This document shows, one piece after another, positions 58,745 to 63,617 of a stretch of DNA of 64,000 bases. Source of the stretch: Planctomycetota bacterium (lineage in GTDB: Bacteria; Planctomycetota; UBA1135; GCA-002686595); the NCBI GenBank assembly GCA_012959525.1, contig DUDB01000053.1:1-64000 (forward strand), in the 5' to 3' direction. Position 1 is the first letter of the stretch. Each line of letters begins with the position of its first letter. The translations under genes and the position numbers were made by a program. The notes under the pieces are model-generated. The model was not told the origin of the DNA. It ran no database searches and worked only from the letters and a program-made list of their open reading frames with translations.

Positions 58745-59671
58745 ATGCAACGACGCGATCTCCTCCAAGGTGCCGCCCTCCTGGGCGCGGGTGCATCCCT
58801 GACTCCCCTCGCCGCAGCCGGACACGCCAGCGATTCCTCGGCGAGACCGGGCGCCCCCTTCAAGCTGCCCTATGCCCCGCACTTCGGCATGTTCAAGAAC
58901 CATGCCGGTGGCGACTTCGTCGACCAGCTGAACTTCATGGCCGACGAGGGCTTCACAGCCTTGGAAGACAACGGGATGATGCGCAAGTCGGTGGAGGACC
59001 AGAACCGGATTGCACAGAACATGCAGCGTCTGGGCATGCGCATGGGCGTCTTCGTCTGCAACTTCGGCACGGCCTTCGGCAAGAAGTCGTTCGTCTCCGG
59101 CAAGAAGGAGTTTGAGGACAACTTCAAGAGCGACCTCATGAAGGCCGTCGAGACGGCCAAGCGCGTGAACGCCAAATGGATGACCGTCGTTCTAGGCGAT
59201 CGCCACCCGGGCATGCGTCAAGGGTTCCAGGACGCGCGCGCCATCGAGATGCTGCGCCGCGGAGCCGAGCTGCTCGAGCCCCATGACTTGGTGATGGTGA
59301 TGGAACCCCTGAACTTCCGCGACCACGCGGGCATGTACCTCGAGCGCAGCGACCATGCTTACATGCTGGCCAAGGCTGCAGATTCACCCGCGGTCAAGAT
59401 CCTGTTCGACATCTACCACCAGGCCATCTCCGAGGGCAACCTCATCCCCAACATCGATCTGTGCTGGGATGAGATCGGGTATTTCCAGATCGGGGACAAC
59501 CCCGGCCGCAAGGAACCCACCACCGGCGACGTGAACTACAAGAACATCTTCAAGCACATCCACAAGAGGGGCTGGAAGGGGATCCTGGGCATGGAGCACG
59601 GCAACGCGGGCGGCGGGAAGGAAGGCGAGCGCGCCGTGATCGACGCCTACCGGGAAGTGGACGGCTTCTAA
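58745..59671 (+). CDS. TAT-exported sugar isomerase/epimerase-like TIM-barrel protein (hydroxypyruvate isomerase family)
   Basis: This encodes 308 residues from ATG 58745. The N-terminus MQRRDLLQGAALLGAGASL is a twin-arginine-type signal, with cleavage near AAAGHA. The mature part follows the xylose isomerase-like/Hyi fold: FMADEGFTALEDNGM, RMGVFVCNFGTAFG, LVMVMEPLNFRDHAGMYL, VKILFDIYHQAISEGNLI (metal-binding Asp/His) and LGMEHGNAGGGKEGE. It probably isomerises a small sugar or hydroxyacid in the periplasm; the substrate is unknown. The TAA overlaps the ATG of the sulfatase gene (TAATG), so they are coupled. Confidence 0.87.
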   Translation: MQRRDLLQGAALLGAGASLTPLAAAGHASDSSARPGAPFKLPYAPHFGMFKNHAGGDFVDQLNFMADEGFTALEDNGMMRKSVEDQNRIAQNMQRLGMRMGVFVCNFGTAFGKKSFVSGKKEFEDNFKSDLMKAVETAKRVNAKWMTVVLGDRHPGMRQGFQDARAIEMLRRGAELLEPHDLVMVMEPLNFRDHAGMYLERSDHAYMLAKAADSPAVKILFDIYHQAISEGNLIPNIDLCWDEIGYFQIGDNPGRKEPTTGDVNYKNIFKHIHKRGWKGILGMEHGNAGGGKEGERAVIDAYREVDGF

Positions 59672-61245
59672 TGGGGCGCACCACCCACGCGATATTCCTG
59701 TCCTTGGCCGCTGGCTACCTACTGGCTTGCGGCAACCTGGCTGTGGTGGATTCGCAGCCCGAGCACAGCGCCGAACCCGCTGCCGAGCGGGAGCGCCCCA
59801 ACATCCTGTTCGTCTTCACCGATGACCACGCGCCGCATGCCATCTCGGCCTACGGTTCGGTCCTCAACGAGACCCCTAACATTGATCGTTTGGCGAACGA
59901 GGGCATGCTCTTCACGCGCACCTTCTGCGGCAACTCCATCTGCGCCCCCAGTCGGGCCACGATCCTCACTGGCAAACACAGCCATGCCAACGGCCACATC
60001 GACAACGGGTCCGAGTTCGACGGATCCCAGGAGACCTTCCCCAAGCTCCTGCGCGCGGCGGGCTACCAGACGGCCATCGTGGGCAAGTGGCACCTTCGAA
60101 GTGCGCCCACCGGGTTCGATCACTGGGAAGTCTTGAAAGGCCAGGGCCCCTACTACAACCCGCCCATCCGCTCTGCGGAGGGCACCGAGGTCATCGAGGG
60201 CTACACCACCGAGGTGCTGACGGATATGGGTCTGGATTGGTTGCAGAACCAACGCGACCCCGACAAGCCGTTCATGCTGATGCTCCAGCACAAGGCACCC
60301 CACCGTCGCTGGCAGCCGGGGCCCCGGGAGCTCGGGATGTACGACGACGTCCAGTTCCTGGAACCCGCCACGCTGTTCGACGACTACGAGGGCCGCAGTA
60401 GCGCGGCGGGCATGCAGGAGATGACTCTGCGCGACCACATGAGCACCGACCTGGATCTCAAGCTGAAGGATCCGGGCGGCATGAACCCCGAACAGCTCGC
60501 GGCCTGGAAGAAGATCTACGATCCCAAGCGCGAGGCCTTCGAGGCGGATCCCCCGACCGGGGATGACCTCGTGCGCTGGAAGTATCAACGCTACATGCAG
60601 GACTACCTGGCCTGCATCGAGGGCGTCGACCATCAGCTGGGGCGCGTGCTGGACTACCTCGACGAGTCGGGCCTGGCCGACAACACCGTGGTGATCTACT
60701 CCTCCGATCAGGGCTTCTACCTGGGAGATCACGGCTGGTACGACAAGCGCTGGATGTATGAGGAGAGCCTGCGCATGCCCTTCATCGTGCGCTGGCCCGG
60801 CCAGACCCCGGCGGGCTCGAACTGCGACGCCCTGTGCCAGAACATCGACTTCGGCCCGACCTTCCTGGACCTTGCCGGGGCCGAGGTGCCGGATGCCATG
60901 CAGGGCGTGAGCCTGACGCCCCTCATGCAAGGCGAGAGTCCCGAGGACTGGCGAAGCTCCATCTACTACCACTACTACGAGTACCCCGCCGTGCACATGG
61001 TCAACCGCCATTACGGCGTGCGCACGGAGCGCCACAAGCTGATCCACTACTACCAATTGGACGAGTGGGAGCTGTTCGATCTGGAACTCGACCCCGATGA
61101 GCTCACGAATCGCGCGGACGATCCCGCCTATTCCGCGGTGCGGGCGGAGCTGAAAACGGAGCTCACGCGACTACAAGAGCTTTACGGTGAGACCGACCCC
61201 GAGGGCACGGTGGACCGCATCTATCCACCCAAGAAGGACGCCTGA
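59671..61245 (+). CDS. Sulfatase, Cys-type, predicted lipoprotein
   Basis: This encodes 524 residues. It begins with a lipoprotein signal (GYLLAC, Cys20). The formylglycine motif is CAPSR with Cys91, followed by ATILTGKHSHANGH; metal-binding Asp51 and Asp52 sit in FVFTDDHA, and IYSSDQGFYLGDHGWYDKRWMYEE provides the distal Asp/His/Lys residues. It hydrolyses sulfate esters, probably of algal or animal polysaccharides, outside the cytoplasm. The Cys must be converted to formylglycine by an enzyme not encoded here. Coupling with the exported isomerase-like protein suggests a joint role in using sulfated sugars. Confidence 0.93.
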   Translation: MGRTTHAIFLSLAAGYLLACGNLAVVDSQPEHSAEPAAERERPNILFVFTDDHAPHAISAYGSVLNETPNIDRLANEGMLFTRTFCGNSICAPSRATILTGKHSHANGHIDNGSEFDGSQETFPKLLRAAGYQTAIVGKWHLRSAPTGFDHWEVLKGQGPYYNPPIRSAEGTEVIEGYTTEVLTDMGLDWLQNQRDPDKPFMLMLQHKAPHRRWQPGPRELGMYDDVQFLEPATLFDDYEGRSSAAGMQEMTLRDHMSTDLDLKLKDPGGMNPEQLAAWKKIYDPKREAFEADPPTGDDLVRWKYQRYMQDYLACIEGVDHQLGRVLDYLDESGLADNTVVIYSSDQGFYLGDHGWYDKRWMYEESLRMPFIVRWPGQTPAGSNCDALCQNIDFGPTFLDLAGAEVPDAMQGVSLTPLMQGESPEDWRSSIYYHYYEYPAVHMVNRHYGVRTERHKLIHYYQLDEWELFDLELDPDELTNRADDPAYSAVRAELKTELTRLQELYGETDPEGTVDRIYPPKKDA

Positions 61246-61377: not shown

Positions 61378-62475
61378 ATGGTTCTCTGCTCATCGCTGCT
61401 CTTCACCGTTTCCCTGGCGACCGCCCCGCCTCCGATGGAACCCACCGCCCCGTGCCCGGCACCCGCTTGCGTACAGGCCGATGATGATCCCGCCGACCTG
61501 CTCGAGGACATCCTGGACGAGTACCAGGAGGCGAGCACCGAGCTGGGTCAGAGGTTCCGCAGCGCCGACGAAGCCGCGCGCAAGCAGATCCTCGAAGTGG
61601 AACTGCCCAAGCTCAGTGAGTCCTACGCGCAACGCGTGCTGAAGTTGACGAGCGACCACCCGGGCACGGATGTGGCCTGGGATGGTCTGTCCTGGATCGT
61701 CAGCAGGGCCCGAGGCGCCGCCTGTCAGGGCGATGCCCTCCTGCAGATGTTCAAGGATTTCGGTAAGGACGAGCGCATCGGCGATATCTGCCTGACCGTG
61801 GCGCGCGGCCCCTTCACGAAGGACACCGTCAAGGCGCTGACCCAGCTGGTCAAGGACAGCCCCCATAAAGACGTGCGTGGACGGGCAACCTTCGCCCTCG
61901 CCATGCAGTACAAGGGTCTTGAGGACCAGAAGGGCTTCATCAAGCAGATGTCTCTGGTTCAGAAGAAATATGCGGACGTGCCGTACACCCGCGGCACCCT
62001 CGGCCCCGTTGCCGAAGGCGCCATGTTCGAAGTGGAGCGACTCCAGATCGGAATGGTCGCACCGGACATCGCGGGTGCTGACCTACAAGGCGTGGACTTC
62101 AAGCTCTCCGACTACCGCGGCAAGGTGGTGGTGATCGACTTCTGGGGCAACTGGTGAGGCCCCTGCGTGGCCATGTACCCCCACGAGCGGTCGCTCGTGA
62201 AACGCCTTGCTGGTGAGCCTTTTGCCCTGATCGGTGTGAACAGTGACAAGGATCTCGAAAAGCTCCAGGACGTTCTTGTTGAAGAGAACATCACCTGGCG
62301 CTCGTTCTGGAACGGTCCCGAAGGAACGGGCGGCCCCATCTCCACCCAGTGGAACGTGCGCGGCTGGCCGACGATCTACATCCTCGACCACGAGGGCAAG
62401 ATCCGCTTCAAGGGCCCGCGAGGCGAGGCCATGGACGAAGCCGTGGACGGACTCCTCGCCGAGATGAGAGGTTGA
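61378..62475 (+). CDS. Selenocysteine-containing TlpA/thioredoxin-like exported protein 1 (in-frame TGA = Sec260)
   Basis: With the TGA at 62155-62157 read as selenocysteine the gene runs from ATG 61378 (TTGGAG 8 nt upstream) to TGA 62475 and encodes 365 residues. Residues 1-16 look like a signal peptide. Residues 40-215 are helical, like the N-terminal part of planctomycete TlpA-like redoxins. The redoxin domain (222-365) has GMVAPDIAGADLQG, FKLSDYRGKVVVIDFWGNW, then U260-G-P-C263 in place of C-G-P-C, and cis-Pro331 in GWPTIYILDHEG. Reading frame and homology continue unbroken past the TGA. The predicted role is a thiol/selenol oxidoreductase in the periplasm. A conventional caller would split it into 61366-62157 and 62167-62475. 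selA, selB, selC and selD are not in the window. Confidence 0.93.
62116..62207 (+). repeat. 92-nt tract identical to 63258-63349 around the first Sec codon
   Basis: Identity starts after a difference at 62115, spans the TGA and the downstream hairpin, and ends at a difference at 62208. Flanking sequence of the two genes differs at several synonymous sites per 60 nt. Confidence 0.95.
62182..62199 (+). promoter_or_regulatory. Bacterial SECIS-like hairpin of selenoprotein gene 1
   Basis: CACGAGC (62182-62188), loop GGTC (62189-62192), GCTCGTG (62193-62199): a perfect 7-bp stem with a GGUC tetraloop starting 32 nt after the TGA. The E. coli fdhF SECIS that binds SelB also presents GGUC at its tip. 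A second, weaker helix CGTGG/CCACG lies just upstream (62166-62185) and partly competes with it. Confidence 0.85.
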
Positions 62476-63617
62476 GACTCCGTTCAACCCTGAGCATCGG
62501 CGTCACGCTCTCGCTCCTGCTGCCGGCCGCCCCGTGTGCGGCTGGCAGTGGGTCTGCGGGATTCTCGTCATCCATCGCCCCCGCGGTCGAAGCTTCCGAC
62601 GACGGCGATGAGCAAATGGAAGACCTCATCGACGAGTTCGATGAACGCATGGCGAAGTTCATGGAGGCCTACAGAGCCGAGGAGGATGAGGCCAAGCGCC
62701 AGGAGCTCTTCACCGGACTGTACCCCAGGCCGGCCGACTTCGCCCCGCGCTTTCGTGCCTTGGCCAACGAGTTCAAGGGCACCCAGGCGGGCGCCAAGGC
62801 CTTGGTCTGGATCGCCACCAATGTCTACGGGGACACCCAGGAGGCTACGGTCGATGAGCTCCTCCGTGACTACCCGGACAGCCCACTACTTGAAGAGGTT
62901 GTGCCCCTTCTGGCCAATCGCTCCGACGAGGGATCCAGGGCCAGCCTACGCTCGCTTCTGTCGGAGAGTCCGCATCGCAACGTACGGGGCCACGCCTGCC
63001 GTGCCCTAGCTCTCAACCTGCGTGGGTTGTCGGCGGACACCGAGGACACAGATCAAAGCAAGAGCCTGATGGCGGAGTCCCGCGCGTTACTCATGCGAGT
63101 GCAAGAGGAGTTCGACGACGTGCCCTATTACGGCGGAACCCTGGGCGCTGCGGCCCGCGGAGAGCTGTTTGAATCCGATCGCCTCCAGATCGGCATGATC
63201 GCCCCGGACATCGCCGGCGCCGACCTTCAGGGCGTGGACTTCAAGCTCTCGGACTATCGCGGCAAGGTGGTGGTGATCGACTTCTGGGGCAACTGGTGAG
63301 GCCCCTGCGTGGCCATGTACCCCCACGAGCGGTCGCTCGTGAAACGCCTCGCTGGCGAGCCCTTTGCCTTGATCGGCGTGAACAGTGACAAGGATCTTGA
63401 AGGACTTCAGGACGTTCTTCTTGAAGAGAACATCACCTGGCGCTCCTTCTGGAACGGTCCCGAAGGAACGAGCGGTCCCATATCCACCCTGTGGAACGTG
63501 CACGGCTGGCCGACGATCTACATCCTAGATCACGAGGGCAAGATCCGCTTCAAGGGCCCGCGCGGGGAGGCCATGGACAAGGCCGTGGACCAACTGCTGG
63601 CCGAGATGAAGAAGTAG
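62472..63617 (+). CDS. Selenocysteine-containing TlpA/thioredoxin-like exported protein 2 (in-frame TGA = Sec276)
   Basis: With the TGA at 63297-63299 read as selenocysteine, the gene runs from TTG 62472 to TAG 63617 and encodes 381 residues. The TTG overlaps the stop of gene 1 (TTGA) and opens a clear signal peptide (MRLRSTLSIGVTLSLLLPAA); no ATG or GTG gives a comparable start. Residues 45-225 form a helical region only distantly similar to gene 1. The C-terminal redoxin half is almost identical to gene 1: GMIAPDIAGADLQGVDFKLS, then FWGNW-U276-G-P-C279 and cis-Pro in GWPTIYILDHEG. The role is presumably also a periplasmic oxidoreductase, co-translated with gene 1. A conventional caller would truncate it at 63299 and report 63309-63617 separately. 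Confidence 0.92.
63258..63349 (+). repeat. 92-nt tract identical to 62116-62207 around the second Sec codon
   Basis: The counterpart of the first tract, offset by 1142 nt. It includes the TGA, the C-G-P-C equivalent codons and the SECIS-like hairpin without a single difference. Confidence 0.95.
63324..63341 (+). promoter_or_regulatory. Bacterial SECIS-like hairpin of selenoprotein gene 2
   Basis: The same CACGAGC-GGTC-GCTCGTG hairpin at the same distance from the TGA (loop starting at +32) as in gene 1. Confidence 0.85.

Follow-up and report, generated by a model that had tools for sequence, protein, structure and literature searches.

A tandem pair of predicted UxxC redoxin selenoproteins in a Planctomycetota genome, and the mostly selenocysteine-form family to which it belongs

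Known relatives and the layout of the pair

TlpA-like selenoproteins with a UxxC active site are already known as a kind, one such family having been predicted from the Sargasso Sea metagenome (cd02966 / PF13905; PMC13188914, PMC9312934), and selenoproteins have been reported in marine Planctomycetes (PMC4807772). Adjacent selenoprotein genes whose products likely act together are also known, from the grdA-grdB, SAO and Tso operons (PMC13188914); these operons join mostly unrelated families, whereas the locus described here holds two paralogues with catalytic domains that appear to be gene-converted. How does this locus compare with the described systems? In the window (the whole 64,000-nucleotide stretch of DNA that was analysed) the two genes are arranged head to tail, both on the + strand, their frames open except for the selenocysteine (Sec) codon and the terminal stop. 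Gene 1 (61378..62475, +), defined by its reading frame and by a congener copy that is 92% identical, encodes 365 aa with Sec260; its Sec codon TGA (62155..62157, +) occupies the first active-site position of W-U-G-P-C, and its terminal stop is also TGA (62473-62475). Gene 2 (62472..63617, +), from a TTG start that is probable, not certain, encodes 381 aa with Sec276, its Sec codon TGA lying at 63297..63299 (+) and its terminal stop being TAG. The first-pass annotation had proposed exactly one in-frame TGA per gene at the first active-site Cys codon, with the redoxin frame running on past it to a normal stop and including the cis-Pro block; both proposals are borne out, and ORF calling does break the genes into fragments as it had foreseen.

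Both products have the same layout: an export signal (a hydrophobic N-terminus, judged by eye), a helical domain of ~180 residues and a redoxin domain. The all-helical domain of gene 1 (residues 38-221; 61489..62040, +) belongs to no named family and has no Pfam match, and the 50 matches listed in a PDB fold search for it extend over roughly the length of a redoxin domain and no more. From an alignment of 54 sequences, AlphaFold (mean pLDDT 92) models nine helices in these residues, followed by a redoxin fold. The TlpA-like redoxin domain of gene 1 (62041..62472, +) is identified by Pfam, PDB matches and the model, and in both products the active site GNW-U-GPC is followed by the cis-Pro block GWPTIYILDHEG. 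The Pfam AhpC-TSA, Redoxin, Thioredoxin_8 and Thioredoxin models all match above cut-off, the first three at 56, 49 and 48 bits.

The best solved relatives of the pair products are TlpA, ResA and DsbE-like proteins. With ResA/TlpA/CcmG-DsbE (1jfu, 4txo, 1st9, NF002854, NF047696, TIGR00385) they share the redoxin fold, export, the cis-Pro block and a W-x-x-[C/U]-x-x-C site; they differ in having Sec for Cys, in the extra ~180-residue helical domain and in scores far under the NCBIfam cut-offs. Membership in the named models is ruled out by these scores: 58 bits against a cut-off of 170 for ResA (NF002854), 51 against 230 for TlpA (NF047696), 35 against 123 for DsbE (TIGR00385) and 31 against 300 for WAxxUGC_long (NF041054). 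The last is likewise ResA-like and long, with an active-site Sec, but its name implies U-G-C spacing as opposed to U-x-x-C in the pair. In domain and motif the pair does resemble the Sargasso Sea UxxC thiol-disulfide isomerase-like selenoprotein, with PF13905 matching at 48 bits and a U-G-P-C site; shared are the TlpA-like redoxin and Sec at the first active-site position. Reviews give a domain, a motif and an accession for that family, and the comparison is by description only. The family of the pair has features that are unmentioned for the Sargasso Sea family: its long N-terminal domain, its occurrence in tandem, its frozen SECIS and its expansion in Planctomycetota.

On these likenesses the pair products are probably exported TlpA/ResA-like thiol:disulfide reductases. 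Sec is common in peroxidases and the top Pfam match is the AhpC-TSA model, which would suit products that are mainly peroxidases (AhpC-TSA/peroxiredoxin-like), or else oxidases or isomerases. We think such functions unlikely, in that a U-x-x-C motif that includes a resolving Cys is, like the solved relatives, indicative of TlpA/ResA/DsbE.

Sec machinery and the SECIS hairpin

The genome that carries the pair (4.04 Mb, 84 contigs, 92.8% complete) also carries the machinery for Sec, the absence of which would have counted against the first-pass annotation. tRNA-Sec (73 bits against a cut-off of 47; ARAGORN agrees, with anticodon tca), selA (485 bits), selB (321-357 bits) and Sec-type selD (350 bits) all lie on one contig, C26. 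SelD (L018/L020, C26) is itself a selenoprotein with the motif A-C-A-G-U; the hairpin after it has 9 bp and a GUG loop, where the SECIS of the window pair has GGUC. Two further redoxins containing TGA are found in the same genome (L139, C61:216946-217248; L140, C9:5756-6061), the first of which continues into a large protein that, judged by eye, is FAD-dependent-oxidoreductase-like.

Downstream of both Sec codons, where the first-pass annotation had not looked, lies a SECIS hairpin at the expected place, adding support for the Sec reading. The hairpin of gene 1 (62182..62199, +), CACGAGC-GGUC-GCUCGUG, is identical to that of gene 2 (63324..63341, +); it is a perfect 7-bp stem that begins 24 nt after each UGA and has its apical loop 31 nt after it. 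The published bSECIS model requires a loop of 3-9 nt with G in the first two loop positions, a stem of 4-16 bp, a distance of 16-37 nt from the UGA and an MFE of <= -7.5 kcal/mol (PMC13188914). The pair conforms to it with 7 bp, GGUC, 31 nt and -18.7 kcal/mol for a 47-nt stretch. Like the SECIS of E. coli fdhF (taken from NC_000913), the hairpin stands just 3' of the UGA and has a GGUC loop; it differs in its fully paired 7-bp stem, in the distance of 31 nt from UGA to loop and in being nearly invariant across the phylum.

The hairpin is encoded by codons +9 to +14 after the UGA (CAC GAG CGG TCG CTC GTG, or HERSLV), and among homologues the codon choice here departs strongly from the usage in the rest of these genes: CGG encodes Arg+11 in 65 of 70 (14% expected), TCG encodes Ser+12 in 64 of 64 (27% expected) and CTC encodes Leu+13 in 91 of 98 (44% expected). 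Codons +15 to +17 no longer show such a bias. The P values for it are too small owing to the relatedness of the sequences, and weight is placed on the contrast with the neighbouring codons. The freezing lies in the codons, beyond the amino acids alone.

Two registers of the hairpin can be discerned among 100 sequences. In the 63 with a GGUC loop, 97.7% of cells are paired and there are three double compensatory changes, including the variant CACGAAC-GGUC-GUUCGUG, which is seen again in the f5 family. In the other 37 the hairpin loop is shifted by 8 nt, for example [G/A]CGCUC-GUG-GAGCG[C/U] or GAGCUC-GUU-GAGCUC; double changes are seen in 21 cells, and 0 of 1000 shuffles reached the same pairing. 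In these relatives the loop stands 39 nt from the UGA, just beyond the published 16-37 nt range. Shifted-register sequences (e.g. L109, L102, L138) have a GUG/GUU or GGUC-type loop, and in many a further hairpin precedes it. A common first hairpin for them (codons 4-10) was tried and rejected, its pairing of 45.6% being no better than that of shuffles. None of the Cys homologues has kept the GGUC hairpin. The 14-mer core GAGCGGTCGCTCGT occurs in the own genome in the two window genes only, and among the copies read in relatives, all that have a TGA 30 nt upstream belong to the redoxin family of the pair. As a general SECIS of other selenoprotein genes the 14-mer was rejected, since in the 30 loci read its occurrences outside the family had no correctly spaced TGA; copies without an upstream TGA look like chance.

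Homologues across the phylum and the reality of the Sec codon

Read from relatives across Planctomycetota, the site is TGA in 138 of 151 homologues, TGY (Cys) in 11 and degenerate in 2. Among the fetched loci of order-level relatives, TGA accounts for 100 of 106 redoxin sites (TGY 4, degenerate 2), and in a second, phylum-wide set for 38 of 45 (TGY 7). Homologues were found in 57 of 61 genomes, the own genome included, and strong homologues in 96 of 392 Planctomycetota genomes. By a hand tally of two tables, of the 84 genomes for which a TGA form is listed, 80 also have selA; the four that have the TGA form and no selA are MAGs that are 77-91% complete, and three of the four Cys-only genomes have no selA. 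In a tree of 148 redoxin domains, the root of which is unknown, the 11 Cys forms are scattered (7 changes) and mostly sit on long branches, and because of this distribution Sec is probably the usual state, with Cys a repeated replacement, as far as direction can be inferred.

In the same tree, the redoxin domains that stand closest to those of the window pair and come from beyond its genus (L161 in G213, L162 in G240) belong to family f15 and not to the window's own, and a third congener, G002 (a MAG ~90% complete), is without the pair. The absence from G002 together with the f15 neighbours could reflect either horizontal transfer or differential loss. One family member (L087 in G043, site 4381) has two active-site TGAs (V-U-L-T-U), possibly a UxxU form.

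Could the TGAs be something other than Sec codons? TGA is one base from TGC or TGT, the data come from MAGs and 11 homologues have TGY, as would suit sequencing or assembly errors in ordinary CxxC redoxins. Such errors are very unlikely, however, because the pair recurs, with both TGAs and the gene order kept, in congener G001 (JAPKBO010000006.1, MAG ANT-40), which was assembled independently; the 138 homologues with TGA likewise come from independent assemblies, and their TGA is followed by a frozen hairpin that the Cys forms lack. We give this explanation a vanishingly small probability, and the same holds for a UGA read by suppression or a changed code as some other amino acid. The identity of the inserted residue is argued by homology alone, but tRNA-Sec with a UCA anticodon and selA/selB/selD are present, and TGA terminates many genes here: it ends 12 of the 29 long ORFs of the window, in keeping with the standard code that the first-pass annotation had deduced. 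The comparison with homologues that it had called for gave Cys or TGA again at the site and never Trp. If instead the TGAs were true stops, the genes would be pseudogenes or would each encode two products, an N-terminal one and a redoxin fragment, and in-frame start codons do exist 3' of the TGA. This is highly improbable, since an open frame with strong conservation flanks the TGA on either side, the stop codon at the site is always TGA and never TAA or TAG across cases, and a split would break the catalytic motif. Sequencing error, pseudogenes and code reassignment are thus ruled out, for practical purposes, by the congener, the homologue counts and the use of TGA as a stop, and the reading of both genes as selenoproteins is strongly supported by these sequence comparisons.

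Divergence, gene conversion and a proposed working of the pair

The products of genes 1 and 2 are 53% identical overall, but the N-terminal domains agree at ~30% of residues and the redoxin domains at 94%. A 92-nt tract that spans the UGA and SECIS is identical between them (62116..62207 in gene 1 and 63258..63349 in gene 2, both +), beginning 39 nt before the TGA, and in congener G001 the two copies share an identical run of 200 nt that begins 15 nt before the TGA, whereas between orthologues identical runs over the UGA/SECIS region are <=44 nt. The N-terminal domains track orthology, with 90% and 67% identity between genomes and 30% within, and the pair of G049, the third compared, is likewise far less alike in its N-terminal domains (32%) than in its redoxin domains (89%). 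These comparisons indicate that gene conversion evens out the Sec/SECIS segment between the two copies, leaving the N-terminal domains to diverge; the catalytic/SECIS cassette is thereby kept uniform within a genome. The sharp step from ~30% to 94% amino-acid identity might also be expected from a recent fusion of one duplicated redoxin to two N-terminal domains. That history seems improbable, as the pair with both N-terminal domains is already present in the congener (orthologous N-terminal domains 90% and 67% identical), and as the two copies in each genome share long identical tracts without counterpart between orthologues.

Tandem pairs recur in at least 11 genomes (G000, G001, G049, G008, G007, G005, G014, G027, G184, G098, G136), and in G007 and G014 one partner is a Cys form. 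Two Sec redoxin domains fused in one frame are seen in L193 (G409) and L200 (G346), where each domain has a TGA and a SECIS-like hairpin and the N-terminal domain is a different one. The gene order TIM barrel - sulfatase - pair - topA is found in two congeners only, and clustering of neighbouring ORFs gave no clear conserved operon partner of window-type genes beyond the genus. The sulfatase immediately upstream of the pair in both congeners (window 59671-61245) is of the Cys type (C-A-P-S-R); no link between sulfatase and redoxin was seen beyond the genus.

The first-pass annotation had thought such a pair undescribed. We likewise found no account of gene-converted pairs, but the N-terminally extended form is not peculiar to the locus, being that of a large Planctomycetota family. 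The freely accessible literature searched yielded no description of the long family, its Planctomycetota expansion, Sec dominance, frozen SECIS or gene-converted pairs, and NCBIfam and Pfam yielded no family-specific model. On this coverage, what appears to be new is a multi-copy family of the Planctomycetota in which Sec predominates and a helical domain precedes the redoxin, together with its repeated tandem pairs and the gene conversion seen in them.

Coupling of the two genes, also suggested at first pass, would in the sense of translation be based on the overlap of stop and start codons. Gene 1's stop codon and the probable start of gene 2 share nucleotides within TTGA (62472..62475, +), and comparable junctions are found in two other pairs, ATGA in L060 and probably GTGA in L062. 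Gene 2 would then probably be translated by termination-reinitiation after gene 1, and its output would depend on successful Sec decoding of gene 1. TTG 62472 is seen in the own genome and not in congener G001, which has no ATG, GTG or TTG there; the case for coupling is weakened because G001 lacks both the TTGA overlap and a canonical start at this place, and translational coupling is best regarded as a candidate arrangement.

How might the pair work? The UGA is most probably decoded as Sec by the organism's own SelA/SelB/SelD/tRNA-Sec, directed by the SECIS hairpin in the downstream coding sequence. According to the general scheme of the TlpA/ResA family, Sec would attack a disulfide, Cys263 (gene 1) would resolve the selenenylsulfide, and a membrane donor would re-reduce the protein, while the N-terminal helical domain probably sets partner or place. 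The pair presumably arose by duplication before the two congeners split. With conversion maintaining a single version of the Sec/SECIS/active-site segment and the N-terminal domains drifting apart, its members could be viewed as carriers of the same catalytic module with different targeting. The electrons probably come from DsbD: in the one DsbD match of the own genome (L183, C51, 156397-157032, minus) the ordinary frame ends FTGFT, and in the C-terminal thioredoxin domain it continues through a TGA (L183:1134) as FTGFT-U-VNC to a normal stop. The donor domain of DsbD thus appears itself to be a Sec form, and a Sec-to-Sec relay from DsbD to the pair is therefore plausible. In the joint account of Sec decoding by the organism's own machinery and SECIS, exported reductases, duplication, gene conversion, coupling and a DsbD donor we place high confidence; the sequences show its reading frames, machinery, SECIS conservation, homology and gene conversion, while reaction direction, donor, substrates and translational coupling are inferred. 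A two-armed periplasmic selenium relay, in which a Sec-form DsbD would serve differently targeted redoxins, with a UGA-dependent second gene and a convertible, phylum-wide Sec cassette, is a tentative extension that we consider rather doubtful. Were it true, the Planctomycetota 'Sec cassette' would consist of the UGA, the frozen GGUC hairpin and HERSLV, uniform across many paralogues, and on the cassette reading RNA structure would dictate protein sequence beside an active site.

The RNA signal does appear to fix neighbouring amino acids, and the family offers a clear case of this. Its two registers, compensatory variants and Cys controls without the hairpin provide a natural SECIS series for how SelB reads its hairpin. 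The family itself is phylum-wide, multi-copy, exported and mostly of the Sec form, and standard annotation splits its members at the UGA. For many Planctomycetota it points to selenium as a basis of part of their exported thiol chemistry.
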